Positions 3,121-64,000 of a stretch of DNA of 64,000 nt are shown here, piece by piece (the first letter of the stretch is position 1; every line of letters starts with the position of its first letter). Source of the DNA: Bacteroidia bacterium (lineage in GTDB: Bacteria > Bacteroidota > Bacteroidia > Flavobacteriales > Flavobacteriaceae). The stretch lies in the NCBI GenBank assembly GCA_030427735.1, contig JAUIBP010000003.1:1-64000 (forward strand), written 5' to 3'. Position numbers and translations under genes: made by a program. The notes beneath the pieces are model-generated. The model saw only the letters and a list, made by a program, of their open reading frames with translations, did not search any database and had not been told where the DNA came from.

Positions 3121-3637
3121 GGTCTTTAAAATGCTGTTAGTACGACAGGGTAAATAAGAAAAAGCTAAATGTATTAATAAATTTTCGATTGTCTGTAATT
3201 AGACATGATTAACAATACAGTGTAAGGTTATTAGACGTGATAGTTCATTATGATAAATAGGTATGATTAGAATAAAGCTTTAGGGTTTTACATTGCATTT
3301 ATCGGCACTATTCAAGTGAAATATTGAACTTATCCTTTTTAAATTCCTTTATATAATAAGATTTGTAGTGATAATTAGGAATAAGTAGTTGTAGTGTTAA
3401 TGTGTTGTTTATTAATTGTTTATTTAGGTTTGAGTGTTTTTGTTGTGTACTAATTGTTGCAATGAGTGATTAAGTATGGGCAAGTTTTTTTCGTGTAGCA
3501 GATTCATGTTTTAGTTTTAGTTGCTCAACCTCAAACAGCATGGTTCTTGGTTGTTTTTTTGTAGTAAAATAATATGGAACTAGGTTTAAATTGTTAGAGG
3601 TTGAGATATTAATTATTAACTAATAACTCAAATTAAA
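3121..3637. other. A/T-rich intergenic region upstream of the T9SS protein
   Basis: These 517 bases between divergent genes contain no credible reading frame. A promoter match lies at 3405-3432. A perfect 9-base inverted repeat (ctcaacctc at 3524-3532, gaggttgag at 3597-3605) encloses 64 bases just before the start codon and could fold in the 5' leader or bind a regulator. Nothing else stands out. Confidence 0.5.
3405..3432 (+). promoter_or_regulatory. Predicted Bacteroidota promoter (TTG-N17-TAGGTTTG)
   Basis: TTG at 3405-3407 and taggtttg at 3425-3432 are separated by 17 bases, inside the TTG-N17-23-TAnnTTTG pattern described for Flavobacterium. It would give the T9SS protein mRNA a leader of about 200 bases containing the 9-base inverted repeat. 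Confidence 0.45.
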
Positions 3638-6208
3638 ATGATGAAAAAAACTACATTTTGGCTAATGGCCTTTTTTTTAATTCTATTTGGTTGGCAGGCG
3701 AAATCGCAAACGAGTTGCGAGACTGCAGTTGCTTTGTCCGATGGTTATTCGCAAACAGGAATAACTACCGATGGTAGTCAAGGCTGGATATCGGCACCTG
3801 GCGATACTTGTGGCGTAAATTGGCGCTTGTGGGGGGCAGACGATTATGTTTTTACCTACACCGCGGAAACCGCAGAAAGCCTTCAATTTAATATTTTAGT
3901 AAATAGTACTGGTATAGTATCTGGAATGTTTACAAGTTGCGATGGTACAACAATATCTGGTTGTTTAGGTGCTACTTATGCTCAAACAGACGGAACTATA
4001 GTTCTAGAAGCTAATGTAAATGCAGGACAGACGGTTTATGTATTGGTATCTGAAATAACTGGAGCTATAGGTGGATTAAATTTTGATGTTACCAGTTTTA
4101 ACGCTACAGAAATTGCTTGTCCAATACCTGTAGACCTTACGGTTTCGGATATTACTACTAAGGAAGCAACTCTGTCTTGGACAGCTGGTTCTGATGAAAC
4201 AAGTTGGATGTATGCCATTTTAGAAAGTGGTTCGGAAATTCCAACAGAAGCTACTGGCGAAATTACCGAAAATACCATAAGCTTAACAGCACTTACTCCA
4301 GATACGGCATACGATTTTTATGTGAAGGCGAATTGTGGCGAAGCGGATGGCGAAAGCGAGTGGGCTGGACCTGTTAGTTTTTCTACATTAATCGCTTGCC
4401 ATGTGCCAACAGCATTAGAAGTGACTGATGCCACTAAAACTACCGCTACAATGTCTTGGACTGCTGGTGGAGACGAAACCGAATGGTATTATGTGGTTCA
4501 GGAAAGTGGGCCAGGGCAACCAATAATGGCTTCTGTAAAGGTAGAAACACCTTCTGTAGCTTTAACAGACTTATCGGCGAGTACCATGTACGAATTTTAT
4601 GTAAAAGCCAATTGTGGCGAAGAAGATGGCGAAAGCGAATGGGCTGGTCCGTATTATTTTGCGACGGAATGCGATGTGTTCACAGAATTTTTTGAAGATT
4701 TTGAATCGACTACAGGAAGAGATTTTCCAGTATGCTGGCAAAAAGTAGGTGAAGCAGGTGATGCGTATCCGCAAACAAGTCCGGTTTTGGAGGGGTCAAG
4801 AAATTTATATATGAAAAGTAGTTCTGAGACCGATAGAGCTGTAGTAGCTTTGCCTGCTGTAAGCAATGCCAGTGCAGGGACACATCAATTAAAAATGAAA
4901 TTAAGAGCCATTGTACCTGCTCAGGCTGGTCAAACTCTAGAAGTTGGTTATTTAACCGATGTGGCAAATGCAGATAGTTTTGTGGTATTATCGTCTACTG
5001 TGGCTACAAGTACTACGGTTCAAGAATTTATTACAATTCCTCAAAATATGCCAGAAGGTACAGTAACCTTAGCTTTGCGTACAGGTGTTTTAAATAAAAA
5101 CCTAGTGGTGGACGATGTATCTTGGGAATTAGCACCAACTTGTCCTGCACCTGGTGGTTTGAATGTAGATAACATAACTGTAAATTCAGCAAGACTAAAT
5201 TGGGTTGAAAACGGTTCTGCAACTACATGGGATATAGAATTAGGGCAAGAAGGATTTGAACCAACAGGAGTGCCTACTTTAAGTGGGATTACGGAAAATC
5301 CATACACATTAAGTGCATTAGAATCTGCACAATCGTATGCCTTGTATTTACGATCTAATTGTGGCGAAGGCGATACCAGCGCATGGGTGGGGCCGTATTC
5401 GTTTACAACGCTTTGCGATATATACACATTACCTTATAATCAAGATTTTAATGAAGGCGCAGCTTTTACCTGTTGGACGGAGGGAAAAGATACCGACATA
5501 GCCACAGGACCTAATGGAAGTAATGGATTATGGACTAACGATGGCTTTTTAGGAGATGGTAGAATAGGAGCTGTATCTTATAATTTTTATGGAACGAATG
5601 CTAATAGAGATTGGTTAGTAAGTCCTACTTTAGACTTGTCTGGTGGAGCTAATGGTATTTCGTTTAGAGCAGCTATTAAAGCCCGTTCTGATGAGGATGA
5701 AGATACTATGAAAGCGGGGGATGAAGTAAGATTATTAATTAGCGAAGATGATGGGATAACTTGGGAAACCGTTTACACCTTTACATCCGACAACCAACCA
5801 AGTAATACGGGAGACCAAATGGTTATTGATTTATCAACATATGATTCTGCTACTGCAAAACTAGCATTCTGGTCTAATAACGGAACTGTGTCGCCAAAAG
5901 ATTATTTCTTTTACATAGATGATTTTACTGTAGATGCTTACGCGACATTATCTGTAAATGAAGCTGTTGTTTTAGATGACGAATCGTTTAAATTTTATCC
6001 AAATCCTGTGCAAAATATCTTAACATTACAAGCTAAACACAATATAGAGACTGTTGTAGTTTACAACATGTTAGGGCAAGAAGTTACATCGGCTGCTCCT
6101 AATCAGAAAAAGAGTCAGTTAGATATGTCTCATTTGCCAATAGGCGCTTATTTTGTAAAAGTATCTGCACAAGGTGTTGTAAAAACAGTGCGTATTATTA
6201 AAAAATAA
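3638..6208 (+). CDS. T9SS-exported fibronectin type III / adhesin-like protein
   Basis: The 856-residue protein is predicted to be secreted and surface-attached. It has a signal peptide (residues 1-23, ending near K-S-Q). An N-terminal beta domain (~25-157) is followed by two fibronectin type III domains (~159-251 and 252-342), a MAM/jelly-roll-like domain (~343-500), a third FN3 (~501-592) and a choice-of-anchor-J/cleaved-adhesin-like domain (~593-765). It ends in a type A T9SS sorting domain (~783-856: F-Y-P-N-P-V near its start, V-Y-N-M-L-G-Q, and a terminal V-R-I-I-K-K). No catalytic motif is visible. A role in adhesion or binding is inferred. The first two FN3 domains are close duplicates. 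ATG-ATG gives two adjacent possible starts. Confidence 0.88.
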   Translation: MMKKTTFWLMAFFLILFGWQAKSQTSCETAVALSDGYSQTGITTDGSQGWISAPGDTCGVNWRLWGADDYVFTYTAETAESLQFNILVNSTGIVSGMFTSCDGTTISGCLGATYAQTDGTIVLEANVNAGQTVYVLVSEITGAIGGLNFDVTSFNATEIACPIPVDLTVSDITTKEATLSWTAGSDETSWMYAILESGSEIPTEATGEITENTISLTALTPDTAYDFYVKANCGEADGESEWAGPVSFSTLIACHVPTALEVTDATKTTATMSWTAGGDETEWYYVVQESGPGQPIMASVKVETPSVALTDLSASTMYEFYVKANCGEEDGESEWAGPYYFATECDVFTEFFEDFESTTGRDFPVCWQKVGEAGDAYPQTSPVLEGSRNLYMKSSSETDRAVVALPAVSNASAGTHQLKMKLRAIVPAQAGQTLEVGYLTDVANADSFVVLSSTVATSTTVQEFITIPQNMPEGTVTLALRTGVLNKNLVVDDVSWELAPTCPAPGGLNVDNITVNSARLNWVENGSATTWDIELGQEGFEPTGVPTLSGITENPYTLSALESAQSYALYLRSNCGEGDTSAWVGPYSFTTLCDIYTLPYNQDFNEGAAFTCWTEGKDTDIATGPNGSNGLWTNDGFLGDGRIGAVSYNFYGTNANRDWLVSPTLDLSGGANGISFRAAIKARSDEDEDTMKAGDEVRLLISEDDGITWETVYTFTSDNQPSNTGDQMVIDLSTYDSATAKLAFWSNNGTVSPKDYFFYIDDFTVDAYATLSVNEAVVLDDESFKFYPNPVQNILTLQAKHNIETVVVYNMLGQEVTSAAPNQKKSQLDMSHLPIGAYFVKVSAQGVVKTVRIIKK

Positions 6209-16111: not shown

Positions 16112-17047
16112 GTGAAGTTTCCTAAACCCTATACCTTGAAGGAAATCGCAAGCGTATTGCATTGCGAATTTGTAGGCGCAGACGATTTTCCTGTTTTGGG
16201 CATGAATGAAATTCATGTGGTCGAAACAGGAGATATCGTTTTTGTAGACCATCCTAAGTATTACGATAAAGCGTTGCAGTCTGCAGCAACTGTGGTGTTA
16301 ATCAATAAAAAAGTTACCTGCCCAGAAGGCAAAGCCTTATTGGTTTCAGACGATCCATTTCGCGACTTCAACCGATTAACACAACATTTTAAACCCTTTC
16401 AATCGGCGCATCAAAGTATTGCAGATTCTGCTATTATTGGAGAAAATACTATTATTCAGCCCAATTGTTTTATCGGTCACAATGTAAGCATTGGTAATAA
16501 TTGTGTTATTCATGCCAACGTAACTATTTACGACGATGCCGTTATAGGCGATAATGTTGTAATTCATTCTGGCACTGTTTTAGGAGCTTCGGCATTTTAT
16601 TATAAAAACAGACCAGAAGGTTTCGATCAATTACAATCTGGTGGCCGTGTAGTTATAGAAAACGATGTACATATTGGAGCCTTGTGTTCTATAGATAAAG
16701 GTGTATCGGGCGATACAATAATTGGTGAAGGTTCTAAATTAGACAATCAAATACAAGTCGGTCACGACACAGTTATTGGAAAAAAATGTTTAATAGCCTC
16801 GCATGTTGGTATAGCGGGTTGTGTGGTTGTAGAAGACGAAGTTACCCTTTGGGGGCAAGTAGGAACCACTAGCGGCATTACCATTGGTGCCAAAGCCGTT
16901 GTTATGGGGCAAACAGGTGTTACGAAGTCTTTAGCAGGCGGAAAAACCTATTGGGGTACACCAGCCGAAGAAGTTCGTGCCCATTTAAAAGGATTGGCAT
17001 TAATTAAACAATTGCCAAAGCTAATAGAAAAGTGGAATACGAAATAA
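16112..17047 (+). CDS. LpxD-like acyltransferase paralogue
   Basis: The 311-residue protein has an LpxD-like N-terminal domain (~1-95) and a hexapeptide beta-helix (~100-280). By eye it keeps the His of Q-V-G-H-D-T, aligned with catalytic His239 of E. coli LpxD. At the second conserved position it reads T-S-G-I-T-I-G, with no His. It may have altered acyl selectivity, a different nucleotide-sugar substrate or reduced activity. The start is GTG at 16112, 5 bases after efp; no in-frame ATG fits better. It is the last gene of the lpx-efp run. Confidence 0.85.
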   Translation: MKFPKPYTLKEIASVLHCEFVGADDFPVLGMNEIHVVETGDIVFVDHPKYYDKALQSAATVVLINKKVTCPEGKALLVSDDPFRDFNRLTQHFKPFQSAHQSIADSAIIGENTIIQPNCFIGHNVSIGNNCVIHANVTIYDDAVIGDNVVIHSGTVLGASAFYYKNRPEGFDQLQSGGRVVIENDVHIGALCSIDKGVSGDTIIGEGSKLDNQIQVGHDTVIGKKCLIASHVGIAGCVVVEDEVTLWGQVGTTSGITIGAKAVVMGQTGVTKSLAGGKTYWGTPAEEVRAHLKGLALIKQLPKLIEKWNTK

Positions 17048-17164
17048 TTAAATCTTTTTCGTGTAAAATTGAAATTGATAGGCAATAAAAGTTAAAAAAA
17101 TACTTTATAAATACTTGTTAAAACTTTACATTTGTAAAGCTTTAAAAAAATAAAACTTACAAAA

Positions 17165-18052
17165 ATGAGCGTTTTAGTAAATAAAAATTCAAAAATAATA
17201 GTTCAAGGATTTACTGGAAGTGAAGGTACTTTTCACGCTAGTCAAATGATTGAATATGGAACAAATGTAGTAGGAGGTGTAACTCCAGGAAAAGGTGGTC
17301 AAACACATTTAGACAAACCTGTATTCAACACTGTAAAAGATGCTGTAGACCAAGTAGGAGCAGATACAACCATCATTTTTGTACCACCAGCATTCGCAGC
17401 CGATGCTATTATGGAAGCAGCCGATGCCGGTATAAAAGTTATTATTACAATTACCGAAGGTATTCCGGTAGCAGATATGATTAAAGCAGCCGATTACATT
17501 AAAGGCAAAGATTGTCGTTTAATTGGTCCTAACTGTCCAGGGGTCATAACTCCAGGAGAAGCAAAAGTAGGTATTATGCCAGGTTTTGTATTTAAAGAAG
17601 GTAAAGTTGGTATTGTTTCTAAATCTGGAACATTAACTTACGAAGCCGCAGACCAAGTTGGTAAGCAAGGATTAGGAATTACAACAGCTATAGGTATTGG
17701 TGGAGATCCAATTATCGGAACAACCACAAAAGAAGCTGTAGAGTTATTAATCAACGATCCTGAAACAGAAGCTGTAGTTATGATTGGTGAAATAGGTGGA
17801 CAGTTAGAAGCCGACGCAGCACAATGGTATAAAGCTAGTGGTAGCAAAAAACCAGTTGTAGGTTTTATAGCTGGCGAAACGGCTCCAGCAGGACGTACTA
17901 TGGGACATGCTGGTGCTATAGTTGGTGGTAGCGACGATACTGCCCAAGCTAAAAAAGCAATTATGAGAGCGTGTGGTATTCACGTGGTAGACTCTCCAGC
18001 CGAAATCGGTAAAAAAGTAGCCGAAGTTTTAGCTCAAGTTGCTTCAGTATAA
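17165..18052 (+). CDS. sucD: Succinyl-CoA ligase subunit alpha
   Basis: This is the TCA-cycle enzyme that couples succinyl-CoA and succinate to nucleotide triphosphate formation. The 295-residue protein has the CoA-binding Rossmann domain (G-F-T-G-S-E-G-T near residue 15) and the ligase domain with the phosphorylated His in M-G-H-A-G-A-I (~248). The beta subunit gene sucC is not adjacent; separation of sucC and sucD is common in Bacteroidota. A -7-like octamer (tacatttg, 17127-17134) lies upstream. A strong terminator follows. Confidence 0.96.
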
Positions 18053-46151: not shown

Positions 46152-47192
46152 ATGAGCGAATTAGGGTATAGATTTCCAGCCGAATGGGAGCAGCAACAGG
46201 GTGTATTATTGTGTTTTCCATACAATGGCAACGATTGGCCAGGAAAATTCAAGGCCATACAATGGGCATTTGTAGAGTTTATAAAAAAAGTAGCACAGGT
46301 AGAAACGGTGTTTCTTGTGGTTAAAGATGGAAAGCAAGAGATGTTTGTTACCGAACTTCTGGATCAGGCTCATGTTAACATGAAACAGGTCGCTTTTTTA
46401 CAACATAAGACCAATAGGAGTTGGATGCGCGATTCTGGACCAATTATTGTAAAAAAAGGAAACGAGCGCATTGCTTTAAATTTCAATTTTAACGGTTGGG
46501 CTAAATATAAAAATTTCACTCTAGATCGTGGTGTTCCACAAAAAGTGGCAACGGCATTAAACATGCCTTTAGAGCAAGTAACATACAAGGGTAAACCTGT
46601 AGTTTTAGAAGGAGGTGCAATAGATGTTAATGGTAAAGGGACTTTATTAACTACAGAAGAATGTTTGTTGCATCCTGACATTCAGGTAAGGAATGGTGGA
46701 TTCACTAAAACGGATTATGAAGCCATTTTTAAAACGTATTTGGGCGTTTCTAATGTTATTTGGTTAGGAGACGGTATAGTGGGCGACGATACCCATGGGC
46801 ATGTAGATGATTTATGTCGATTTGTAAACGAAGATACCATTGTTACTGTTGTAGAAGATAACCCTGACGACAAGAATTACAAAGTGCTTCAAGATAATTT
46901 AAAACGCTTAAAGGCTTCGACTTTAGAAACAGGAAAAACACCAAATATTGTAACCTTGCCAATGCCTAAACCGTTGTTTTTTGATGGTTTGCAAATTCCG
47001 GCTAGTTATGCGAATTTTTTAATTTTAAATACATTAGTGTTGGTGCCTGTATTTAATGATAGTAACGATAGAATAGCTTTAAATACCATTGCCGATTGTT
47101 TTCCAAATCATGAAGTTATCGGCATGAGCGCGATTGATTTAATTTGGGGATTTGGCACCTTACATTGCTTAAGTCAGCAAATTCCATCGTAA
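46152..47192 (+). CDS. aguA: Agmatine deiminase
   Basis: The 346-residue peptidyl-arginine-deiminase-like protein carries the family pattern: R-F-P-A-E-W-E near the start, W-M-R-D-S-G-P near residue 91, E-G-G-A-I-D near 155, D-D-T-H-G-H-V-D-D near 212, and the nucleophilic Cys in G-T-L-H-C-L-S-Q-Q near the C-terminus. It converts agmatine to N-carbamoylputrescine. Together with aguB it makes putrescine without ornithine decarboxylase. Confidence 0.94.
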   Translation: MSELGYRFPAEWEQQQGVLLCFPYNGNDWPGKFKAIQWAFVEFIKKVAQVETVFLVVKDGKQEMFVTELLDQAHVNMKQVAFLQHKTNRSWMRDSGPIIVKKGNERIALNFNFNGWAKYKNFTLDRGVPQKVATALNMPLEQVTYKGKPVVLEGGAIDVNGKGTLLTTEECLLHPDIQVRNGGFTKTDYEAIFKTYLGVSNVIWLGDGIVGDDTHGHVDDLCRFVNEDTIVTVVEDNPDDKNYKVLQDNLKRLKASTLETGKTPNIVTLPMPKPLFFDGLQIPASYANFLILNTLVLVPVFNDSNDRIALNTIADCFPNHEVIGMSAIDLIWGFGTLHCLSQQIPS

Positions 47193-54850: not shown

Positions 54851-56317
54851 TTGAAGACACTAGACACCCTTCCTTTATTCTCATCGTATAGTTTCGATTC
54901 CAGATTTTATGACGAATTACTAGACGACAATCAGGATATAAGAGATATTTACAAAAGGCTTTTTAAAATGTTTAGTGCCTATTCTGTAAACGAATTTGCA
55001 CAGCTTAATAAACGGGCAAAAGATTCATTCTTTAATTTAGGAATTACTTTTCAGGTGTATGGTGAAAATGAAGTTCAGGAAAAAATTTTTCCATTCGATT
55101 TGTTTCCACGTATCATCAATGAAAAAGATTGGAATCATATAGAAAGAGGCGTTTTACAACGGTGTAAAGCGCTAAACTTGTTTTTATGGGATGTGTATCA
55201 CGAACAAAAGATTATTAAACAAGGTATTGTTCCGATAGAGCTTATAAGTTCTTCTGTTAATTATTTAAAGCAAATGAAAGGGCTTAATCCGCCCGAAGGC
55301 ATTTACAATCATATTTCTGGTACCGATTTAATTAAACATTCCGACGGCCAATATTATGTGTTGGAAGATAACATTAGATGCCCGTCGGGTGTAAGTTATG
55401 TTATTGGGAATAGGCAAGCAGTAAAGCATGCGCTTTTTGGTGTATTCAATCAATACAAATTACATACGGTTGTAGATTATGGAGCCAATTTGTTGGAAAC
55501 CATGGAGTCTGTAAAACCATCTGGAGTAGATAATCCTGTATGTGTTGTAATTACGCCAGGAGTTTACAATTCGGCATATTACGAGCATTCGTTTTTGGCT
55601 AAACAAATGGGAGTGGCTTTGGTAGAAGGAAGGGATTTACTGGTTGAGAACGATTTTGTGTACATGCGAACTATTTACGGTTTAGAGAAAGTAGATGTTA
55701 TTTACCGCCGTATAGACGACATGTTTATAGATCCGTTAGTCTTTAATAAAGAGTCTTTATTGGGTGTTCCTGGATTGTTTTCTGTTTATAAAAAAGGCAA
55801 TGTTACATTGGTTAATGCGCCGGGAACTGGCGTGGCAGACGATAAGGCGATTTACACTTACATGCCAGAAATTATTAAATACTATCTTGATGAAACGCCT
55901 ATTTTAAATAATGTTAACACCTATCATTGTAGCAGAGCAACAGACCTAGCGTATGTGCTAGACCATATTCACGAATTGGTGGTAAAACCTGTAGACGAGT
56001 CTGGAGGTTATGGTATTTCTATAGGAAACACCTTAACTAAAGAAGAGATAGAGAAGGTAAAAACTACAATACAATCAGATCCTAGAAAATATATCGCACA
56101 ACCTATTATGTCGTTGTCTACACATCCTACATTTGTGCACGAAACAGATTCTTTCGAGTCACGACATGTCGATTTAAGAACCTTCACTTTATTAGGAAAA
56201 GATAAAGATTTTGTTCTAAAAGGAGGACTTACTAGAGTTGCTTTAAAAAAGGGGAATTTGGTAGTGAATTCTTCGCAGGGTGGTGGTTCTAAAGATACTT
56301 GGGTTTTAAAAAAATAA
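54851..56317 (+). CDS. Circularly permuted ATP-grasp protein (stand-alone)
   Basis: The 488-residue protein matches the circularly permuted type 2 ATP-grasp family. Landmarks are V-L-E-D-N-I-R-C-P-S-G-V-S-Y (~175), Y-R-R-I-D-D-M-F-I-D-P (~290), the glycine loop V-V-K-P-V-D-E-S-G-G-Y-G (~377), and the C-terminal G-G-L-T-R-V-A with N-S-S-Q-G-G-G-S-K-D. ATP-grasp enzymes activate a carboxylate to form amide bonds; this family is predicted to ligate or tag peptides. The start is TTG at 54851. It precedes the alpha-E gene by 6 bases. Confidence 0.88.
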   Translation: MKTLDTLPLFSSYSFDSRFYDELLDDNQDIRDIYKRLFKMFSAYSVNEFAQLNKRAKDSFFNLGITFQVYGENEVQEKIFPFDLFPRIINEKDWNHIERGVLQRCKALNLFLWDVYHEQKIIKQGIVPIELISSSVNYLKQMKGLNPPEGIYNHISGTDLIKHSDGQYYVLEDNIRCPSGVSYVIGNRQAVKHALFGVFNQYKLHTVVDYGANLLETMESVKPSGVDNPVCVVITPGVYNSAYYEHSFLAKQMGVALVEGRDLLVENDFVYMRTIYGLEKVDVIYRRIDDMFIDPLVFNKESLLGVPGLFSVYKKGNVTLVNAPGTGVADDKAIYTYMPEIIKYYLDETPILNNVNTYHCSRATDLAYVLDHIHELVVKPVDESGGYGISIGNTLTKEEIEKVKTTIQSDPRKYIAQPIMSLSTHPTFVHETDSFESRHVDLRTFTLLGKDKDFVLKGGLTRVALKKGNLVVNSSQGGGSKDTWVLKK

Positions 56318-56323
56318 GATTAT

Positions 56324-57325
56324 ATGTTAGCAAGAGTCGCCAATAATTTATTTTGGATGGGACGCTATTTAGAGCGCTCAGAACATTTGGCAAGATATTT
56401 AAGTGTGAATTACTTTTCGTCTTTAGATGCACCAGACGACATGTCGCAATCTAAACAGTTTGTATTTCGGTCTGTTATGTATATGAGTGCTAATTTAATT
56501 GTAGCGCCCGAAGTAGAACTAAAAGAAGAAGAGGTGTTGTTTAATGTGGGCTTAAATACCAATGCCCCTTATTCTATTATTAACTCTATGTTTAAAGCTT
56601 ATGAAAATGCACGAAGTTCCAGAGATTTAATTTCTACCGAGCTTTTTGAAGCTATAAACACTATAAGAAACGATGTTAAAAACTATTCGGTCGAAGATTT
56701 TATTAAAAGTAATTTATATGATTTTACAACGCTAGTCACCAATGCGACTTCTAGTATACGAACCAAAATACAAAGTACTTTATTGCACGACGAGGTGTAT
56801 GCCATAATTATGTTGGGTATATATTTAGAGCGCGCTATGCAGGTGTCCAGAATTATAAATTCTAAAGTAAGCGATGCATCGGCCGAAAAGGAATATTACA
56901 GTTCTACTATGGGCGAAACACATGGCTACCAATGGAGTACCTTGTTAAAATGTGTGTCTTCTTACGATATGATGCGACGGTTTTATAAAAAAACACCCCA
57001 ACGTAAAAACACATTGGAATTCATCATTTTAAATAGTCAGTGTCCACGCTCTATAAAGAATTGTTTGAACGAAATACATAAGTATATTGCTATCATTTCA
57101 AAAGAAAAAAATCCTTCAAACCCTTCGGCATCGTTTTCAATTGCAAAAATGAAATGTGAATACGATTATAAACTTATTGAAGATATAGATGATAATTTAC
57201 AAGAATGTATAGGCCAATTGGTGACTAAGTTGGAAATTATAGCCGAACAGTTAGAGGAAGATTATTTCAATATTTCGAATGCCTGTATCGTAAAACCGCA
57301 TCAAAAACAAGAGTTTATTTATTAA
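56324..57325 (+). CDS. Alpha-E domain protein (stand-alone)
   Basis: The 333-residue all-helical protein has the alpha-E opening L-A-R-V-A-N-N-L-F-W-M-G-R-Y-L-E-R, followed by the family's scattered conserved acidic and aromatic residues. Alpha-E proteins accompany circularly permuted ATP-grasp enzymes almost invariably; their role is unknown, perhaps as substrate adaptor. The last 11 bases overlap the 3' end of the convergent transglutaminase gene. Confidence 0.85.
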   Translation: MLARVANNLFWMGRYLERSEHLARYLSVNYFSSLDAPDDMSQSKQFVFRSVMYMSANLIVAPEVELKEEEVLFNVGLNTNAPYSIINSMFKAYENARSSRDLISTELFEAINTIRNDVKNYSVEDFIKSNLYDFTTLVTNATSSIRTKIQSTLLHDEVYAIIMLGIYLERAMQVSRIINSKVSDASAEKEYYSSTMGETHGYQWSTLLKCVSSYDMMRRFYKKTPQRKNTLEFIILNSQCPRSIKNCLNEIHKYIAIISKEKNPSNPSASFSIAKMKCEYDYKLIEDIDDNLQECIGQLVTKLEIIAEQLEEDYFNISNACIVKPHQKQEFIY

Positions 57326-58214
57326 CATCGGCAGGTCTAATATCTACAGCAACGTCCATATCGTTTTTTCCTGTAGTGTAAATTATACCTTTTAAAGGCG
57401 GAACATCGTAATAATCTCTACCATGTGCCACAATTAAATGTTGGTTTTTAGGAATTTGATTGTTGGTTGGGTCAAAGTCAAACCAGCCTAAAGTTGGTAT
57501 AAACACCGAAAACCAAGCGTGCGAAGCATCTGTGCCCACTAATTTTTCTTTGCCTGGCGGTGGCAGGGTTTCTATATAACCACTTACATAACGTGCGGGT
57601 AACCCCATAGCGCGAACGCAGGCTATAGCAATTTGAGCAAAATCTTGGCAAACACCTTTTTTTTCGTTCATTACGTCTTGTAATGGTGTAGAAATGTTGG
57701 TGAATCCCGATACAAAATCAAAATCGGTGTAAATGCGCTGCATGAGTTCTAAAGCCGCATCGTATAAGGGCCTATTTGGTTTAAACGATACTTTGGCATA
57801 CGCTCTAATATCTGTAGAGATTTCAGAGATGAGAGGCGATTTTAAAGTGTATTGTCTGGCATCAATAAGTTCTGGCTCTATACCGCGTAATAATCGTTTT
57901 GCTAAATCGACTGTTATTATTTTTCGGCTAGAAAGGTCGATGTCTTCAAATTGTAAATCGAAATTCCTATCCACTTTACTTCTCGCCGTTACCTTTAATT
58001 CGTCATGTAATTGACCTATTGAAAAATGCGTTATTGTGTTTCCAAAAAAATCGATGCGCTCGGAAAAATCTGCAGGCTTTGGGCTAATTTCTAATGTGTA
58101 ATCTAATAGCGAATGGCCTTTAAAGTCTTTTGGTTTTAAAGTGGCTAAATTTTGGCAGTAAGACACGCCATTTTCGTATTTATAGGTTGTGGTATGCGAA
58201 ATATTAAAAACCAT
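57315..58214 (-). CDS. Transglutaminase-like cysteine protease family protein
   Basis: The 299-residue protein has an N-terminal beta-barrel domain (~1-100) typical of bacterial transglutaminase-like proteins (Y-K-Y-E-N-G-V), then the transglutaminase core with Cys189 (K-G-V-C-Q-D-F), His232 (D-A-S-H-A-W) and Asp248 (D-F-D-P-T). Such proteins are usually peptidases rather than cross-linkers. It is the third gene of the minus-strand operon, two bases after the ATP-grasp/alpha-E fusion. Confidence 0.9.
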   Translation of the reverse strand: MVFNISHTTTYKYENGVSYCQNLATLKPKDFKGHSLLDYTLEISPKPADFSERIDFFGNTITHFSIGQLHDELKVTARSKVDRNFDLQFEDIDLSSRKIITVDLAKRLLRGIEPELIDARQYTLKSPLISEISTDIRAYAKVSFKPNRPLYDAALELMQRIYTDFDFVSGFTNISTPLQDVMNEKKGVCQDFAQIAIACVRAMGLPARYVSGYIETLPPPGKEKLVGTDASHAWFSVFIPTLGWFDFDPTNNQIPKNQHLIVAHGRDYYDVPPLKGIIYTTGKNDMDVAVDIRPADVNK

Positions 58215-58216
58215 GT

Positions 58217-60766
58217 TTAATTGGAAGCTTTACGGTTTACTAATTGCTTTTGCTGATAAGAATGATTGAAATAAGTGTTTGCGATAGATGAAGAAATATC
58301 GAATAATAATTCACTTAAATCTGCCAACAACTTTTCTAAATTTAAATACATGTTTGAAGCTTGGTCTACCTTAAGTAAAAAATTAAGGTCTATATTTTCT
58401 ATTTTCTGCAATGCCAAGCTAATTTGCTTTTGGCTGGCAGAACGTCCTAAGTTAGAGGTATTGTTAGGCAATTGGTCTATGTCTTTCTTCAAGCGGTGTA
58501 TTTGGTACGTTAATGAGCGCGCATAGTCTTTATCGAGCAATAATAGATTTATAACGTTTTCTATACTCAAATACGATTGGTAGCTGTATCTGTAAATGTT
58601 TAAACTTTCATGACTGGCCAAGAGTGCTTCTAAAATTTCGTATTCCAACTCTTCGTCGTGCTTTACAATAATTAAAGCCCTGAATTTTGAAATGGTAATT
58701 GTGGCTTGTTCTAATTGCAAACCAATAAAATAGAGTAGCAGCCCTTGTTTTACCAAAATACTTTCTTCGGTTAAGGCCATGAAGGCGATTAATCGTGTGA
58801 TAATTTTATCGAAAAACTTAATAAGCGATTGTACAGTGTATTGCTCGTCGTCTTTTAAGTTGCTCCATAAACGCTGAATATCATCAGATACGCGCCACAT
58901 GTCTTTAGACCATAAATTTCTGAGCGAGTAATACGAGTTGTTAAAACTCATTAAGGTTTGGGCAAAACTGCCTATTCTGGTATCGTCTAAAACCAAGTTT
59001 TGTATTTCTTTTAAAGGCTGTTTTAGGGTGTCTTCATCTTCTATAAAACCAGGATAAGTAGAGGTGATGGCTGTAATAGACTTAAATAATAAGGTTAAAC
59101 TTTCCGATTCAGACTTTCTAATATTGTATTGTACATTGGCCATTTGGTTTAACACCATTCTTAAATAACGTGCAGTTAACATGGTACGCCCTAAATATCT
59201 GCCAGACCAAAATAAATTTTCAGCGGTATAGCTAGGTACGTCGTTTATATTGGAGGTGTAATTAGATATGGTTTTATTCCACGCATATAATTGAATATTG
59301 TGTTGGTCGTCATCGCTAATAATCCAAAAATCTTTGCTAGTGCCACCACGTTGGTTAGATACGATTAGCTTTTCGCGCTCTGCGGCAACACGAACTAGAC
59401 CACCAGGCATAACACTGTAACTGTCGTTTTTGGCTATTGCAAAAGTACGCGATACTATTTTTCTTGGCTCTAATGCTCCATTAACGAAATTTGGTGCGGT
59501 AGAAAAATAAATTTTTTCTTGAGCAACATATTGGTAAGGGTTGGCCAGGATTTTTAGTTTTAATGTTTTTAATTCTTGTTCCGATAAAAACTCGCAGAAA
59601 AATAAACTTTCTCTATGCAGTCGGTCTATGCGTTTTACGACAAACGACTTCATATTGTTAATCACATAGTGTCGTTCTTTTTCTTGCCCACACCACCAAG
59701 ATGCAATTTGCGGTAAGATTAAGTCTTCGTTTAAAAAATACTTACAAATATTTTTCATAAACGGAATAAGACCAGGGTTTTCTAAAACACCGCTGCCAAT
59801 AGGGTTTACTACCGTAACGTTTTGCATTCTAACCGCTTCAAGCAAGCCTGCTACCCCTAAATACGAATCTTCTCTAAGTTCTAATGGATCTACAAAAATA
59901 TCGTCTACACGCCTTAAAATAACATCTACTTGGCGTAAACCATTTAAGGATTTTAACCAGACCTTACTGTTTCTAACCACTAAATCGTTGCCTTTTACTA
60001 GGGGATAACCCAATAAAGACGATAAATAAGAGTGCTCGAAAAAAGTTTCGTTGTGTGGTCCGGGTGTTAAAATAACTACTGTAGGATTGTCTTTGTTTGA
60101 TGGTGCAGCATTAAATAGCAACTGATTAAAATCGTTAAAAAAAACAGATGGGTGTATAACGTTTATATTGCTATACAATTCGGGTAAAATTTTACTGGTA
60201 GAGAACCTGTTTTCTAAGGCATAGCCCATTCCCGAAGGCGCTTGCGACCTATCGTTAACTACCCACATTCTACCATCTGGTCCTCTTGCCAGATCTGCAG
60301 CATAGATAAGTAATTGCTTTGCTGTTTTGTATTGTATATTATCGCAGGCTCTTAAAAAACCTCGGTGGGCGTACACCACTTCGGGAGGCAAGATGCCTTG
60401 TTTTAGTAATTCTCGTTTGCCGTATAAATCTTTTAAAATTAAATTTAGAAGTTCGGCACGTTGGGTAATACCTTGCTCTACTGTTTTCCATTCTTTTTGG
60501 TGAATGATAAACGGAACAATATTTAAATTCCAAGGTCTATTAAGGCCTTTAGGGTCGTTGTAAACATTGTAAGTTACACCGTTTTCTGAAAGTAACCAAT
60601 CTAAATCGGCCTGTTTAGTGGTTAAAGCTTTGCTTCCTATTTTTGTAAGATTAGTTAAAAGCACTTTCCAATCGTCTTTAGTAGATAGATTGACGTTTAA
60701 TAATTCGTCGTAATTATTAAAGTCTTTAAAATAGTTTTGAAAAATGGTGTGCTCTTTTGTATCCAT
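58217..60766 (-). CDS. Circularly permuted ATP-grasp / alpha-E fusion protein
   Basis: Residues ~1-490 are a circularly permuted ATP-grasp domain (V-V-N-D-R-S-Q-A-P-S-G-M-G-Y ~180, L-R-R-V-D-D-I-F-V-D-P ~290, G-G-L-V-R-V-A, N-Q-R-G-G-T-S-K-D). Residues ~510-830 are an alpha-E domain (A-E-N-L-F-W-S-G-R-Y). At the position of the stand-alone paralogue's glycine loop E-S-G-G-Y-G it reads V-V-K-R-I-D-R-L-H-R-E-S, without glycines, so its nucleotide chemistry may differ. It is one operon with the two flanking transglutaminase genes (12- and 2-base gaps). Confidence 0.88.
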   Translation of the reverse strand: MDTKEHTIFQNYFKDFNNYDELLNVNLSTKDDWKVLLTNLTKIGSKALTTKQADLDWLLSENGVTYNVYNDPKGLNRPWNLNIVPFIIHQKEWKTVEQGITQRAELLNLILKDLYGKRELLKQGILPPEVVYAHRGFLRACDNIQYKTAKQLLIYAADLARGPDGRMWVVNDRSQAPSGMGYALENRFSTSKILPELYSNINVIHPSVFFNDFNQLLFNAAPSNKDNPTVVILTPGPHNETFFEHSYLSSLLGYPLVKGNDLVVRNSKVWLKSLNGLRQVDVILRRVDDIFVDPLELREDSYLGVAGLLEAVRMQNVTVVNPIGSGVLENPGLIPFMKNICKYFLNEDLILPQIASWWCGQEKERHYVINNMKSFVVKRIDRLHRESLFFCEFLSEQELKTLKLKILANPYQYVAQEKIYFSTAPNFVNGALEPRKIVSRTFAIAKNDSYSVMPGGLVRVAAEREKLIVSNQRGGTSKDFWIISDDDQHNIQLYAWNKTISNYTSNINDVPSYTAENLFWSGRYLGRTMLTARYLRMVLNQMANVQYNIRKSESESLTLLFKSITAITSTYPGFIEDEDTLKQPLKEIQNLVLDDTRIGSFAQTLMSFNNSYYSLRNLWSKDMWRVSDDIQRLWSNLKDDEQYTVQSLIKFFDKIITRLIAFMALTEESILVKQGLLLYFIGLQLEQATITISKFRALIIVKHDEELEYEILEALLASHESLNIYRYSYQSYLSIENVINLLLLDKDYARSLTYQIHRLKKDIDQLPNNTSNLGRSASQKQISLALQKIENIDLNFLLKVDQASNMYLNLEKLLADLSELLFDISSSIANTYFNHSYQQKQLVNRKASN

Positions 60767-60778
60767 GATAAAGAAACC

Positions 60779-63700
60779 TTATTTTTTCCTTAGGTCTAAA
60801 GTGTAAGGGAATTCAAAATTAATAGGTAATTCTTTAAATTTAAAATGTTTAGTACTGGTTTTTTTTACAACATTTCGGGTTGGGTTATCGTGCGAGAAAT
60901 TAAGTTTCGAGGCTAGTTCTAATTCTCCTTGGGTATGGCCAAACTCCCAAAAACGATTAATACGTCTAGATTCGGCTTCAAAACTATTTACAGGATACGT
61001 GTCGTATGAACGTCCGCCAGGATGAGACACAAAATACGTACAGCCACCAATAGAGCGATTGTTCCATAAATCGACAATATCAAAAACTAAGGGAGTGTCT
61101 ATAGGAATAGTTGGGTGTAATGCCGAATACGGATTCCAAGCTTTATATTTTATGCCAGCAACAAACTCACCTTTTACGGCGGTATTGTTTAGTTGTACTT
61201 TAACTCCATTACAGGTTAAAACATAGCGTTCTTCTGTGAAATTTGAAACCTTAACTTGTACACGCTCTACAGACGAATCGACATAACGAGACGTACCTGC
61301 TCCAGTCATTTCTTCACCTAAAACATGCCAAGGTTCTATGCCCGACCTTAGTTCTAAATGGATATTGCTTATAGTTACCATACCATGTAGAGGGAATCGA
61401 AATTCAAAAAATGGATTAAACCAATCTTCTTTAAAGGCATAGCCAGCTTTGTTTAATTGAGAAACAATGTCTTTTATGTCTTCTCTAACATAGTGTTCTA
61501 TTAAAAACTTGTCGTGCAGCTCGGTACCCCAACGTACTAAATTATGTTCGTATGGCGATTTCCAAAACCAAGCAACTAGAGTTCTTACCAATAGCATTTG
61601 CATTAAACTCATCTGTGGGTGTGGCGGCATGTCGAAACCACGAAGCTCTAAAATTCCTAAGCGGCCAGAAGAGGAGTCTGGCGAATATAATTTATCGATA
61701 CAAAACTCGGCACGGTGAGTATTTCCTGTAAGATCTGTAAGTAAATGTCTAAACAATCTGTCGGTTAACCAAAAAGGCACTTCTCCTGTCTTTGGAATTT
61801 GATTGAAGGCAATTTCGAGTTCGTATAAATTTTCCATTCGGGCTTCGTCAATTCTAGGTGCTTGACTTGTTGGCCCAACAAAAGCGCCAGAGAACAGGTA
61901 AGTTAAGCCAGGATGGTGCTGCCAAAAAGTTAATAAACTGCGCAATAAACTTGGTTTTCGCAATAAAGGACTGTCATTTGGGGTTGTACCGCCCAATGTA
62001 ACATGGTTGCCACCTCCTGTACCTGTATGCTTGCCATCGACCATAAATTTTTCTGTGCCTAAGCGTACATGTTTAGCTGCATTGTATAGGGTAAATGTAT
62101 TATTACATAGGGTTTCCCAATTAGCAGAAGGATGTATGTTAACTTCTATAACACCTGGGTCTGGAGTAATTTTAAGCGATTCTAATCGGTTGTCTTTAGG
62201 CGGTTCGTAGCCTTCTAAAATAACTGGAATATTAAGGTGCTTAGCTGTTAATTCTATGGCTGTAATTAAATCCAGAAAACTTTCGGCTGTCCCTAAGGGT
62301 GGTAAAAATAGGTATAGATTTTCATTTCTTATTTCAGCACAAATAGCTGTTCTTACAAAATAATTAGGACTTTCTGGATCTACCCCAGCGTCATTAAAAT
62401 CTTTATAACGTTTAAGTACTTTCGTTTTATAACTAGGTAAAGGTTTCTGTTTAGAAAATAAATTAGGTTCGTAATTAGGAAACACTTCGTGCTCGGGTTT
62501 TGCCATTAAAGAGTTTAGTGGCAAGCGTAAACCAAGCGGAGAATTTCCAGGCGTTAAAAACAAAAAATTGCGCCTAAACGTCCAAGCGCTTGTATACCAA
62601 GTATTGTTATTAGTATTTAAGGGTAATACATAGCCAACAGTTTTAGACGTGCCATTTGCTAGTATTTCTTTGAGTTTTTTTTGTACTAAAGAAGCATCTT
62701 TGTCCGTTGCAGGGTCTACATCTACAGGTAGATTGCCTTGTTCCCACATAAAATAAAAAGCATCTTCGTAGGCAGGTAAAATATGATCATTGGTAATGCC
62801 CAAATATTGGGTAAGCGTATTTAAAAATAACTTATCGGCATCTTGTGGTAATGTAGGTGTTTTGGTATAAGCGGCCAATAGGTTTGTGTCGTGCCAAATA
62901 GGTTTTTCGTCTTTGCGCCAGCATAATTCTATTTGCCATCGGGGTAAAGGTTCGCCAGGGTACCATTTCCCTTGGGCATGATGTAGTACACCACCTTTGC
63001 CGAACTGGTTTAGTAATTGCTTAGACAGGTCTGAGGCGAGTTTTCGTTTGTGTTCGCCATCGGCTTCAGTATTCCATTGTGGCGATTCCATATCGTCTAT
63101 AGACACAAATGTGGGTTCGCCTCCCATGGTTAATCTAACATCGCGTTTTTGGAGTTGCTTTTCTACTTTTTGCCCTAGATTATAAATGGCTTGCCATTGA
63201 TGTTCGGAATACGGCTTGGTAACTCTTGGAGATTCGAAAATGCGTTTTACTGTGTTTTCGAAAAAGAATTCTGTTTCGCAAACATCGGTTAAACCAGAAA
63301 CTGGTGCAGCACTTTCAAATGAAGGTGTGCAAGCTAATGGAATATGACCTTCGCCAGCGAGTAAACCAGAGGTGGCATCAAAACCAATCCAACCAGCGCC
63401 GGGAATATAAACTTCGGCCCAAGCATGTAAATCGGTAAAATCTTCTTCAGGACCAGAAGGGCCGTCTAACGATTTTTCATCTGATTTTAATTGCACTAAA
63501 TATCCCGATACAAATCGAGCTCCAAAACCTAAATGTCTTAGTACTTGAACAAACAACCACGCATAATCTCTGCAGGATCCACTTTTTAATTGTAAAGTAT
63601 CTTCACAAGTTTGTACCCCTGGATCTAAGCGGATGTTGTAATTGAGATAATTATAAATTTTTTGGTTTAGATCTACTAAAAAATAAATGGTTTTACGTGG

Positions 63701-64000
63701 GGTGTAATCAATCGTTTTAATAAAATCGAGTAATAAAGGCCCTTGCTCTTTAATTTCTAAATATGGTAGTAATTCTTTTTTTACGGCATCTTCATAACTA
63801 AATGGATATTCTTCGGCGTAGTCTTCCACAAAAAAATCAAAAGGATTTATAGTGGTTAGATCGGCTATAATTTCGACATCTATAACAAGTTCATCTGTCT
63901 TTTCAGGAAACACCAATCGGGCAACGTAATTACCAAAAGGATCTTGTTGCCAATTAAAAAACTGGTTTTCGGGTTTTATTTTTATGGAATACGCTTCTAT
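60779..64000 (-). CDS. Transglutaminase-like / DUF2126 protein, N-terminus beyond window
   Basis: The open frame enters from the right edge and ends at 60779; 1073 residues are visible. The sequence upstream of an internal GTG at 63916 (P-E-N-Q-F-F-N-W-Q-Q-D-P-F-G-N-Y) is conserved family sequence, so that GTG is not the start. A bacterial transglutaminase N-domain leads into the core with Cys (S-G-S-C-R-D-Y, codon 63572-63574), His (D-L-H-A-W) and Asp (G-F-D-A-T-S-G). The remaining ~770 residues are DUF2126, a large domain found with this core. Predicted peptidase/amidase partner of the ATP-grasp proteins. Confidence 0.92.
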   Translation of the reverse strand: MEAYSIKIKPENQFFNWQQDPFGNYVARLVFPEKTDELVIDVEIIADLTTINPFDFFVEDYAEEYPFSYEDAVKKELLPYLEIKEQGPLLLDFIKTIDYTPRKTIYFLVDLNQKIYNYLNYNIRLDPGVQTCEDTLQLKSGSCRDYAWLFVQVLRHLGFGARFVSGYLVQLKSDEKSLDGPSGPEEDFTDLHAWAEVYIPGAGWIGFDATSGLLAGEGHIPLACTPSFESAAPVSGLTDVCETEFFFENTVKRIFESPRVTKPYSEHQWQAIYNLGQKVEKQLQKRDVRLTMGGEPTFVSIDDMESPQWNTEADGEHKRKLASDLSKQLLNQFGKGGVLHHAQGKWYPGEPLPRWQIELCWRKDEKPIWHDTNLLAAYTKTPTLPQDADKLFLNTLTQYLGITNDHILPAYEDAFYFMWEQGNLPVDVDPATDKDASLVQKKLKEILANGTSKTVGYVLPLNTNNNTWYTSAWTFRRNFLFLTPGNSPLGLRLPLNSLMAKPEHEVFPNYEPNLFSKQKPLPSYKTKVLKRYKDFNDAGVDPESPNYFVRTAICAEIRNENLYLFLPPLGTAESFLDLITAIELTAKHLNIPVILEGYEPPKDNRLESLKITPDPGVIEVNIHPSANWETLCNNTFTLYNAAKHVRLGTEKFMVDGKHTGTGGGNHVTLGGTTPNDSPLLRKPSLLRSLLTFWQHHPGLTYLFSGAFVGPTSQAPRIDEARMENLYELEIAFNQIPKTGEVPFWLTDRLFRHLLTDLTGNTHRAEFCIDKLYSPDSSSGRLGILELRGFDMPPHPQMSLMQMLLVRTLVAWFWKSPYEHNLVRWGTELHDKFLIEHYVREDIKDIVSQLNKAGYAFKEDWFNPFFEFRFPLHGMVTISNIHLELRSGIEPWHVLGEEMTGAGTSRYVDSSVERVQVKVSNFTEERYVLTCNGVKVQLNNTAVKGEFVAGIKYKAWNPYSALHPTIPIDTPLVFDIVDLWNNRSIGGCTYFVSHPGGRSYDTYPVNSFEAESRRINRFWEFGHTQGELELASKLNFSHDNPTRNVVKKTSTKHFKFKELPINFEFPYTLDLRKK

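Follow-up and report, generated by a model that had tools for sequence, protein, structure and literature searches.

Operons that combine a circularly permuted ATP-grasp (CP-ATP-grasp), an alpha-E protein, a transglutaminase and the proteasome-like protein Anbu have been described previously (PMC5666114, PMC6376114; excerpts of the papers are the source for all statements cited here by PMC number). The present study concerns a set of five genes at the end of a 64,000-nucleotide stretch of DNA from a marine member of the Flavobacteriaceae (assembly GCA_030427735.1, contig JAUIBP010000003.1, positions 1 to 64,000 of the forward strand; hereafter the window). In this set a plus-strand half, in which CP-ATP-grasp and alpha-E are encoded by separate ("split") genes, converges on a minus-strand half encoding a transglutaminase-like (TG) domain joined to DUF2126, a fused CP-ATP-grasp-alpha-E protein and a free TG. 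The set is real and conserved and probably constitutes one system, of a kind that was already predicted in 2008-2009. In the Anbu operon (PMC5666114, PMC6376114) as in the window, ATP-grasp, alpha-E and a TG-like protein adjoin each other, but the window set has DUF2126 and the fused protein in addition, and Anbu was not found in the genome. For the homologous split ATP-grasp of Y. bercovieri, release of phosphate from ATP has been reported (PMC6376114).

A family of fusions between a TG and a carboxylate-amine ligase, exemplified by Rv2566, was described in 2008, and a fold like that of glutamine synthetase (GS) was assigned to the ligase by sequence; peptide-metabolite synthesis was preferred as its role, since no small Pup-like open reading frame (ORF) lies near the fusion (PMC2588565). 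The two-domain layout of this family matches that of TG-DUF2126, and the sequence-based fold assignment agrees with the structure comparison given below; here, TG-DUF2126 is described together with its partner set and linkage. The excerpt on the fusion family names no biochemical function for it (PMC2588565). In Pfam, DUF2126 is labelled 'Putative amidoligase enzyme'. Rv2566 is presumably a DUF2126 protein. The prediction of peptide synthesis for such sets reportedly stems from Iyer 2009, which citing papers also connect with the Anbu operon; the degenerate state of the fused ATP-grasp may already be noted there.

The rlo operon of Pseudomonas, with the protease RloA, the inactive transglutaminase RloB and the ATP-grasp RloC, likewise combines an ATP-grasp with a TG-fold protein but differs in that RloC is likened to RimK and RloB is a membrane protein; neither 'alpha-E' nor DUF2126 occurs in the excerpted text on this operon (PMC12239564). 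In marine metagenomes, alpha-E, a TG-like domain and CP-ATP-grasp were associated with urea metabolism domains (PMC3597751). In P. putida grown on nitrate versus ammonium, log2 changes of 4.44 (about 22-fold) for PP_2685, a proteasome beta subunit-like protein taken here as Anbu, and of 3.99 (about 16-fold) for PP_2688, a CP-ATP-grasp type 2, were reported (PMC8050072). With regard to known structures, the split ATP-grasp of the window aligns over residues 18-487, and thus nearly its full length, to PDB 3n6x (E 1.2e-150) with agreement of the signature residues treated below, and a profile search of the PDB returned no structure besides this one; 3n6x is named only putatively as a glutathionylspermidine synthase, and the window protein is without a fused amidase domain. 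The term 'DUF2126' and phrases for an inactive ATP-grasp were found in none of the open-access papers searched, a scope outside which most subscription papers lie. Nothing decisive came from PMC12096838, PMC8407117 and PMC13207237. To our knowledge no product of the CP-ATP-grasp/alpha-E/TG set has been reported, and none is named in the literature searched.

Layout, co-occurrence and linkage of the two halves

The plus-strand half consists of the split CP-ATP-grasp gene (54851..56317; 488 amino acids, TTG start; Pfam CP_ATPgrasp_2, 529.7 bits) and the alpha-E gene (56324..57325; 333 amino acids; Pfam Alpha-E, 222 bits). The minus-strand half is transcribed in the order TG-DUF2126, fused CP-ATP-grasp-alpha-E, free TG, the latter two adjoining TG-DUF2126 on the same strand. 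TG-DUF2126 occupies 60779..64000 and leaves the window there, the full gene encoding 1110 amino acids with its start at contig position C12:64111 (Pfam Bact_transglu_N, Transglut_core and DUF2126, 1265.4 bits; DUF2126 part at 60782..63286). The fused gene lies at 58217..60766 (849 amino acids; CP_ATPgrasp_2 481.8 bits, Alpha-E 175.6 bits) and the free TG gene at 57315..58214 (299 amino acids; Bact_transglu_N and Transglut_core). All Pfam matches of the five genes are far over the curated cut-offs, which excludes chance matches; none of the five proteins matched NCBIfam at E <= 0.001. ORFs and Pfam together thus give every domain that had been assigned to the two halves by a first-pass annotation made from the sequence, and the 11-bp overlap it described between the 3′-ends of the plus-strand pair and the minus-strand operon was seen in the ORF coordinates at 57315..57325.

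Of 397 Flavobacteriaceae genomes, 104 had a CP-ATP-grasp and 52 had DUF2126, the latter being a subset of the former, and a split ATP-grasp followed by alpha-E was read in each of the 52; genomes without DUF2126 had a CP-ATP-grasp in 52 of 345 cases. A second sample comprised 299 genomes from the same phylum as G439, which carries the Bordetella locus L112. Here, CP-ATP-grasp was matched in 161 genomes (157 over the curated cut-off), namely in 84/84 with DUF2126 (the matches listed place it in 82 of the 84, split and fused forms being indistinguishable in G498 and G674) and in 77/215 without. The set is therefore widespread in both samples. Moreover, all 24 DUF2126 genomes chosen by hand from the named loci introduced below had a CP-ATP-grasp match in a frame of 459-525 amino acids, and both families were also matched in Synechococcus elongatus, which served as a control genome. 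In the genomes sampled the dependence is one-way: DUF2126 always occurs with CP-ATP-grasp, and the reverse does not hold, with Fisher values for the co-occurrence treating related genomes as independent. Unlinked profiles of the two halves, named in the first-pass annotation as speaking against a common pathway, were not seen, as DUF2126 genomes always had a CP-ATP-grasp.

The nearest split ATP-grasp lay within 12 kb of DUF2126 in 17/52 Flavobacteriaceae (12 convergent, 3 divergent, 2 colinear) and in 39/84 genomes of the G439 phylum (1 convergent, 18 divergent, 20 colinear). These counts are lower bounds, given that only same-contig pairs (32/52 and 49/84) could contribute and the remainder was scored as unlinked. 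By chance, less than 1% would be expected, since the interval spans 24 kb in a genome of about 4 Mb. Linkage, found in several layouts and in two phyla, is far above chance.

The search with TG-DUF2126 gave 63 named loci, around each of which 10 kb were read; no split pair was seen within this distance in many of them. The order [TG-DUF2126, fused, TG] converging on [alpha-E, ATP-grasp] was also present in Lacinutrix, Oceanihabitans, Polaribacter, Tamlana, Lutibacter and Aquimarina, and in Winogradskyella the DUF2126 operon converges on a split pair of a more distant ATP-grasp type. The idea that the convergent layout is unique to the source genome, as the first 98 relatives suggested, was rejected in view of these six other genera. 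The overlap itself was not seen in the relatives read, where the convergent genes, if direct neighbours, are spaced by 7 to 176 bp. In other phyla, L089, L091, L092, L102 and L110 carry ATP-grasp, alpha-E, TG-DUF2126 and the fused gene in a colinear run, followed by TG in the four loci whose contig continues; in L102, TG-DUF2126 spans two frames.

In the five genus mates examined (G001-G005), the two halves are at least 200 kb apart or on separate contigs. The ATP-grasp, the fused protein and TG-DUF2126 of the window were placed on quick trees that carried long-branch warnings. In these, the window ATP-grasp groups with those of G156, G387, G127 and G333 (support 100), apart from the genus mates, whose ATP-grasp has as its relative another copy of the source genome, on contig C13 (support 99). 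The fused protein shares a group of 15 rows with Lutibacter, Tamlana, Polaribacter, Lacinutrix, Oceanihabitans and Winogradskyella (support 99). TG-DUF2126 also falls into a group of 15 rows, in which Aquimarina replaces Lutibacter (support 91, under the 95 mark); the genus mates fall elsewhere in both trees. The other genera that group with the window in the three trees have the convergent layout. Because the three window proteins side with other genera and not with the genus mates, the five genes seem to have moved as a unit.

A clean empty insertion site in the genus mates was considered and is not supported by the positions of OsmC and EamA, close homologues of which lie 37-70 kb apart and away from the DUF2126 operon in G002, G003 and G004, while G001 and G005 gave a weak OsmC match only. 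In G005, the fused gene (L041, 7969-10529, minus strand) is broken by a frame break, either real or an assembly error. Between the DUF2126 operon and the distant-type split pair of the Winogradskyella locus L084, a zinc metallopeptidase-like gene was noted (16850-17902, minus strand; Peptidase_Mx PF15887 and a zinc ribbon, with Pfam run on L084 alone); similar frames are present in L106 and L108.

Signature residues, predicted folds and the free transglutaminase

In order to compare the split and the fused ATP-grasps, eight signature positions were read (E172, N174, K379, G385, G386, G388, D441 and R443 in the numbering of the window split ATP-grasp), which we take to represent the E-x-N metal motif, the ATP-binding Lys, the Gly-rich loop and the D-x-R motif. 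All eight residues are kept in 135/135 split rows, the window protein included; two low-count rows among the 137 sorted as 'split' by length (L098 and L101) are fused proteins cut by contig ends. Among the 69 fused rows, 63 keep two of the eight residues, four keep three and two keep one: E172, N174, G385 and D441 are retained in none, G386 in four, G388 in three, K379 in 65 and R443 in 68. Loss or disruption of the E-x-N metal motif and of the Gly-rich loop was seen in every fused row, also in the ATP-grasp part of the window protein (59384..60514, minus strand), and the loss spans rows from Bacteroidota, Campylobacterales, Verrucomicrobiota and proteobacteria. The rows correspond to 131 distinct split and 63 distinct fused sequences and are not equal to genomes, some of which occur twice (as a named locus and under a G handle). 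By length, the counts exclude the broken fused gene of G005 and an interrupted split gene of G333. The latter (L164, 4929-6380, minus strand), the ATP-grasp gene of a second split set, is broken by a stop codon; G333 also has an uninterrupted split set beside its DUF2126 operon.

The fused alpha-E part deviates as well: of the 25 positions with a conservation of 95% or more among split alpha-E proteins, eight (two of them at the protein start) are kept in 0/69 fused rows, and A6, W11, R14, Y15, R18, G165 and E169 are kept in all 69. The fused proteins have conserved motifs of their own and are hence under constraint. Judged from these alignments, the fused ATP-grasp has probably ceased to be an ATP-dependent ligase.

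For DUF2126, a profile search of the PDB gave nothing useful. The structure model (835 amino acids; mean predicted local distance difference test, pLDDT, 75.9) was compared with the PDB by Foldseek, where the best 50 of 335 matches were all glutamine or gamma-glutamylmethylamide synthetases, the first with E 5.8e-3 and probability 0.98. Many acidic (E), His and Arg columns are invariant across 28 sequences. The model comparison supports a GS fold at modest strength, and on account of this resemblance DUF2126 is most likely the second ligase of the locus. The AlphaFold2 model of alpha-E is all-helical (mean pLDDT 83.6) and had no PDB fold match at E <= 0.001 (best E 0.55). The Cys-His-Asp triad is intact in both TG domains of the window, that of the free TG, which is similar to PDB 3isr and 6g49, and that of TG-DUF2126. 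The DUF2126 match appears in two pieces without stops between them in some genomes (e.g. G464, G480, G519), with about 30-40 profile positions (roughly 290-325) uncovered; this is local variation of the domain.

The state of the free TG was read in 112 split sets, from the 104 Flavobacteriaceae genomes and the genus mates G001, G003 and G005, which are outside the 397. A set was called TG-less if no TG lay on the same strand within 2.6 kb of the split pair; the contig of G313 stops about 2 kb past its alpha-E gene. In DUF2126-negative genomes the TG triad was intact in 53/53 split sets. The 59 sets from DUF2126-positive genomes comprised 38 with an intact triad, 13 without TG and eight with a broken triad (Fisher p 1.9e-7 for TG loss against DUF2126, with related genomes counted as independent). 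Each of the 13 TG-less pairs has a DUF2126 operon nearby, all of them belonging to the 17 linked Flavobacteriaceae, and none of the eight broken-triad sets is linked. The pattern is suggestive of the TG of the DUF2126 operon being able to replace the split set's own. G005 is the sole genus mate of the five with an intact split-set TG.

A proposed single system and its alternatives

The locus is best read as an active ATP-grasp and a GS-fold ligase together with two thiol domains that cut or transfer amides and a non-catalytic fused partner. That the five genes form one system for building an amide-linked product and afterwards trimming or transferring it, the fused partner being non-catalytic, is put forward tentatively, with a likelihood that falls a little short of even. 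In a first step, the split ATP-grasp with its alpha-E partner would activate a carboxylate with ATP and couple it to an amine; the putative GS-fold DUF2126, beside its fused TG domain, would form a second ATP-dependent amide bond; and the TG-fold Cys-His-Asp enzymes would cut or transfer amide bonds, with a single free TG serving both halves. The fused ATP-grasp-alpha-E would most likely be a subunit without catalytic activity, linking the DUF2126 ligase with the active ATP-grasp/alpha-E pair. No signal peptide was obvious by eye in the five proteins, which on this basis are probably cytoplasmic, as probably is the system as a whole. A more specific version is possible but doubtful, in which, in several bacterial phyla, a conserved ATP-grasp pseudoenzyme fused to alpha-E docks DUF2126-TG onto the active ATP-grasp/alpha-E pair, whereby ligases of two unrelated folds would act one after the other on one product with a shared TG editor; an obligate two-ligase machine of this kind, if true, would explain why DUF2126 was never found without CP-ATP-grasp in the genomes sampled.

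The first-pass annotation had proposed one pathway that uses the two ATP-grasps as ligases of different specificity. The single pathway is borne out by co-occurrence in every sample, linkage within 12 kb, colinear runs and the common tree position; its assignment of the ligases was not supported, with the signature lost in 69/69 fused rows and DUF2126 the likelier second ligase. Two active ATP-grasps in one pathway are improbable, in spite of the match of both proteins to CP_ATPgrasp_2 over its full length. The fused proteins keep the equivalents of K379 (65/69) and R443 (68/69) besides their own motifs, and are thus constrained, and since they diverge beyond any split row compared, a shifted active site is conceivable; set against this, E172, N174, G385 and D441 occur in 0/69 fused rows from several phyla as opposed to 135/135 split rows, and eight of the 25 conserved alpha-E positions are also missing throughout. 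The halves might instead be two separate pathways with common enzyme folds, whose convergence reflects a favourable neighbourhood. This would fit the 52 of 104 CP-ATP-grasp-bearing Flavobacteriaceae without DUF2126, the distance between the halves in G001-G005 and the Winogradskyella operons that adjoin a distant type of split pair, but it is rendered rather improbable by a one-way dependence without exception in the samples taken, by linkage far above chance in several layouts and two phyla and by the 13/13 TG-less split pairs beside a DUF2126 operon.

A third alternative is the tagging of proteins in the manner of pupylation or RimK glutamylation, instead of the synthesis of small molecules. 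This has been proposed for the Anbu operon, which is related (PMC6376114), and elsewhere the GS-fold ligase PafA (PMC2588565) and the ATP-grasp ligase RimK (PMC12239564) act in this way; it is considered unlikely here, as PMC2588565 argues for peptide metabolites from the lack of a small Pup-like ORF near the TG-ligase fusion, and Anbu was found in the source genome neither with PF00227 nor with an Anbu protein query.

Several observations weigh against the reading of one system with a non-catalytic fused partner. Identity to the window ATP-grasp is 21-34% for fused and 41-83% for split rows, and as no split row is as divergent as the fused ones, part of the residue loss could accompany divergence; the lost signature residues fall short of proving loss of all catalysis. 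Two of the 24 hand-chosen genomes (G443 and G453) show no second, fused CP-ATP-grasp, so that the fused protein may be dispensable or these assemblies incomplete. Linkage was unseen in 35/52 Flavobacteriaceae and 45/84 genomes of the G439 phylum. For DUF2126, no Foldseek match reached E <= 0.001, the template modelling (TM) scores of 0.17 (query) and 0.29 (target) are low, and the mean pLDDT is the 75.9 given above. As to the sharing of TG, four of the 17 linked Flavobacteriaceae retain their own TG and 38 of the 59 split sets have an intact one of their own, including 17 with an ATP-grasp of the same type as in the window; moreover, the pattern amounts to only 4-5 changes on the ATP-grasp tree, and an independent-pairs test, with no more than 3 informative pairs, did not reach significance (p >= 0.25). 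In the case of the Y. bercovieri protein, the phosphate released could stem from plain ATP hydrolysis, and co-expressed proteins of that operon gave no specific pull-down (PMC6376114).

The one-way dependence counts, the reading of the fused ATP-grasp as a pseudoenzyme and the pattern of TG sharing, for which the statistics are weak, were not found in the literature searched. With these data the probable ligases are narrowed to the split ATP-grasp and DUF2126, the fused protein probably being none. Knowledge of the product could lead to a nitrogen-related pathway, either for a metabolite or for tagging, for which the nitrate response of P. putida may be compared (PMC8050072).

Third set, search for Anbu and surroundings of the locus

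The source genome (G000; 3.64 Mb, 20 contigs) encodes three CP-ATP-grasps, the third of which belongs to a set on contig C13 (locus L006, C13:172000-190000) that also includes an alpha-E gene and one for a TG-like protein. In this TG-like gene (9049-9894 of L006, plus strand) the catalytic Cys is replaced by Ala, and His and Asp are kept. In the corresponding TG of the genus mates, Ser stands at the Cys position in G001-G004, His is also changed in G002-G004, and the triad is intact in G005.

An N-terminal nucleophile (NTN) hydrolase, which the first-pass annotation had thought worth seeking beyond position 64000, was looked for on the contig and genome-wide and was not found. The PF00227 search for a proteasome-like or Anbu gene gave no match in the source genome, and neither did a query with the Anbu protein of a relative, which was positive in 6 of 57 genomes searched. 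The protein query is the stronger negative because a Flavobacteriaceae Anbu only just clears the PF00227 cut-off (22.6 versus 22.4 bits). An Anbu relative is present in 4/52 DUF2126-positive Flavobacteriaceae, and in L123 (G345) an Anbu-like protein (3402-4124, plus strand) is encoded between alpha-E and TG.

The genes beyond the set up to C12:85000 were judged from their translations by eye, and no further members of the set were apparent among them; they begin with two transporters of EamA type and one gene each of FKBP and ArgK type, followed by metabolic and transport genes. On the other side, about 7.7 kb from the set, lies a gene of the PAD_porph (peptidyl-arginine deiminase) family (window 46152-47192, plus strand). 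Agmatine deiminases are members of this family, and a link of the set to polyamines via this neighbouring gene is possible.

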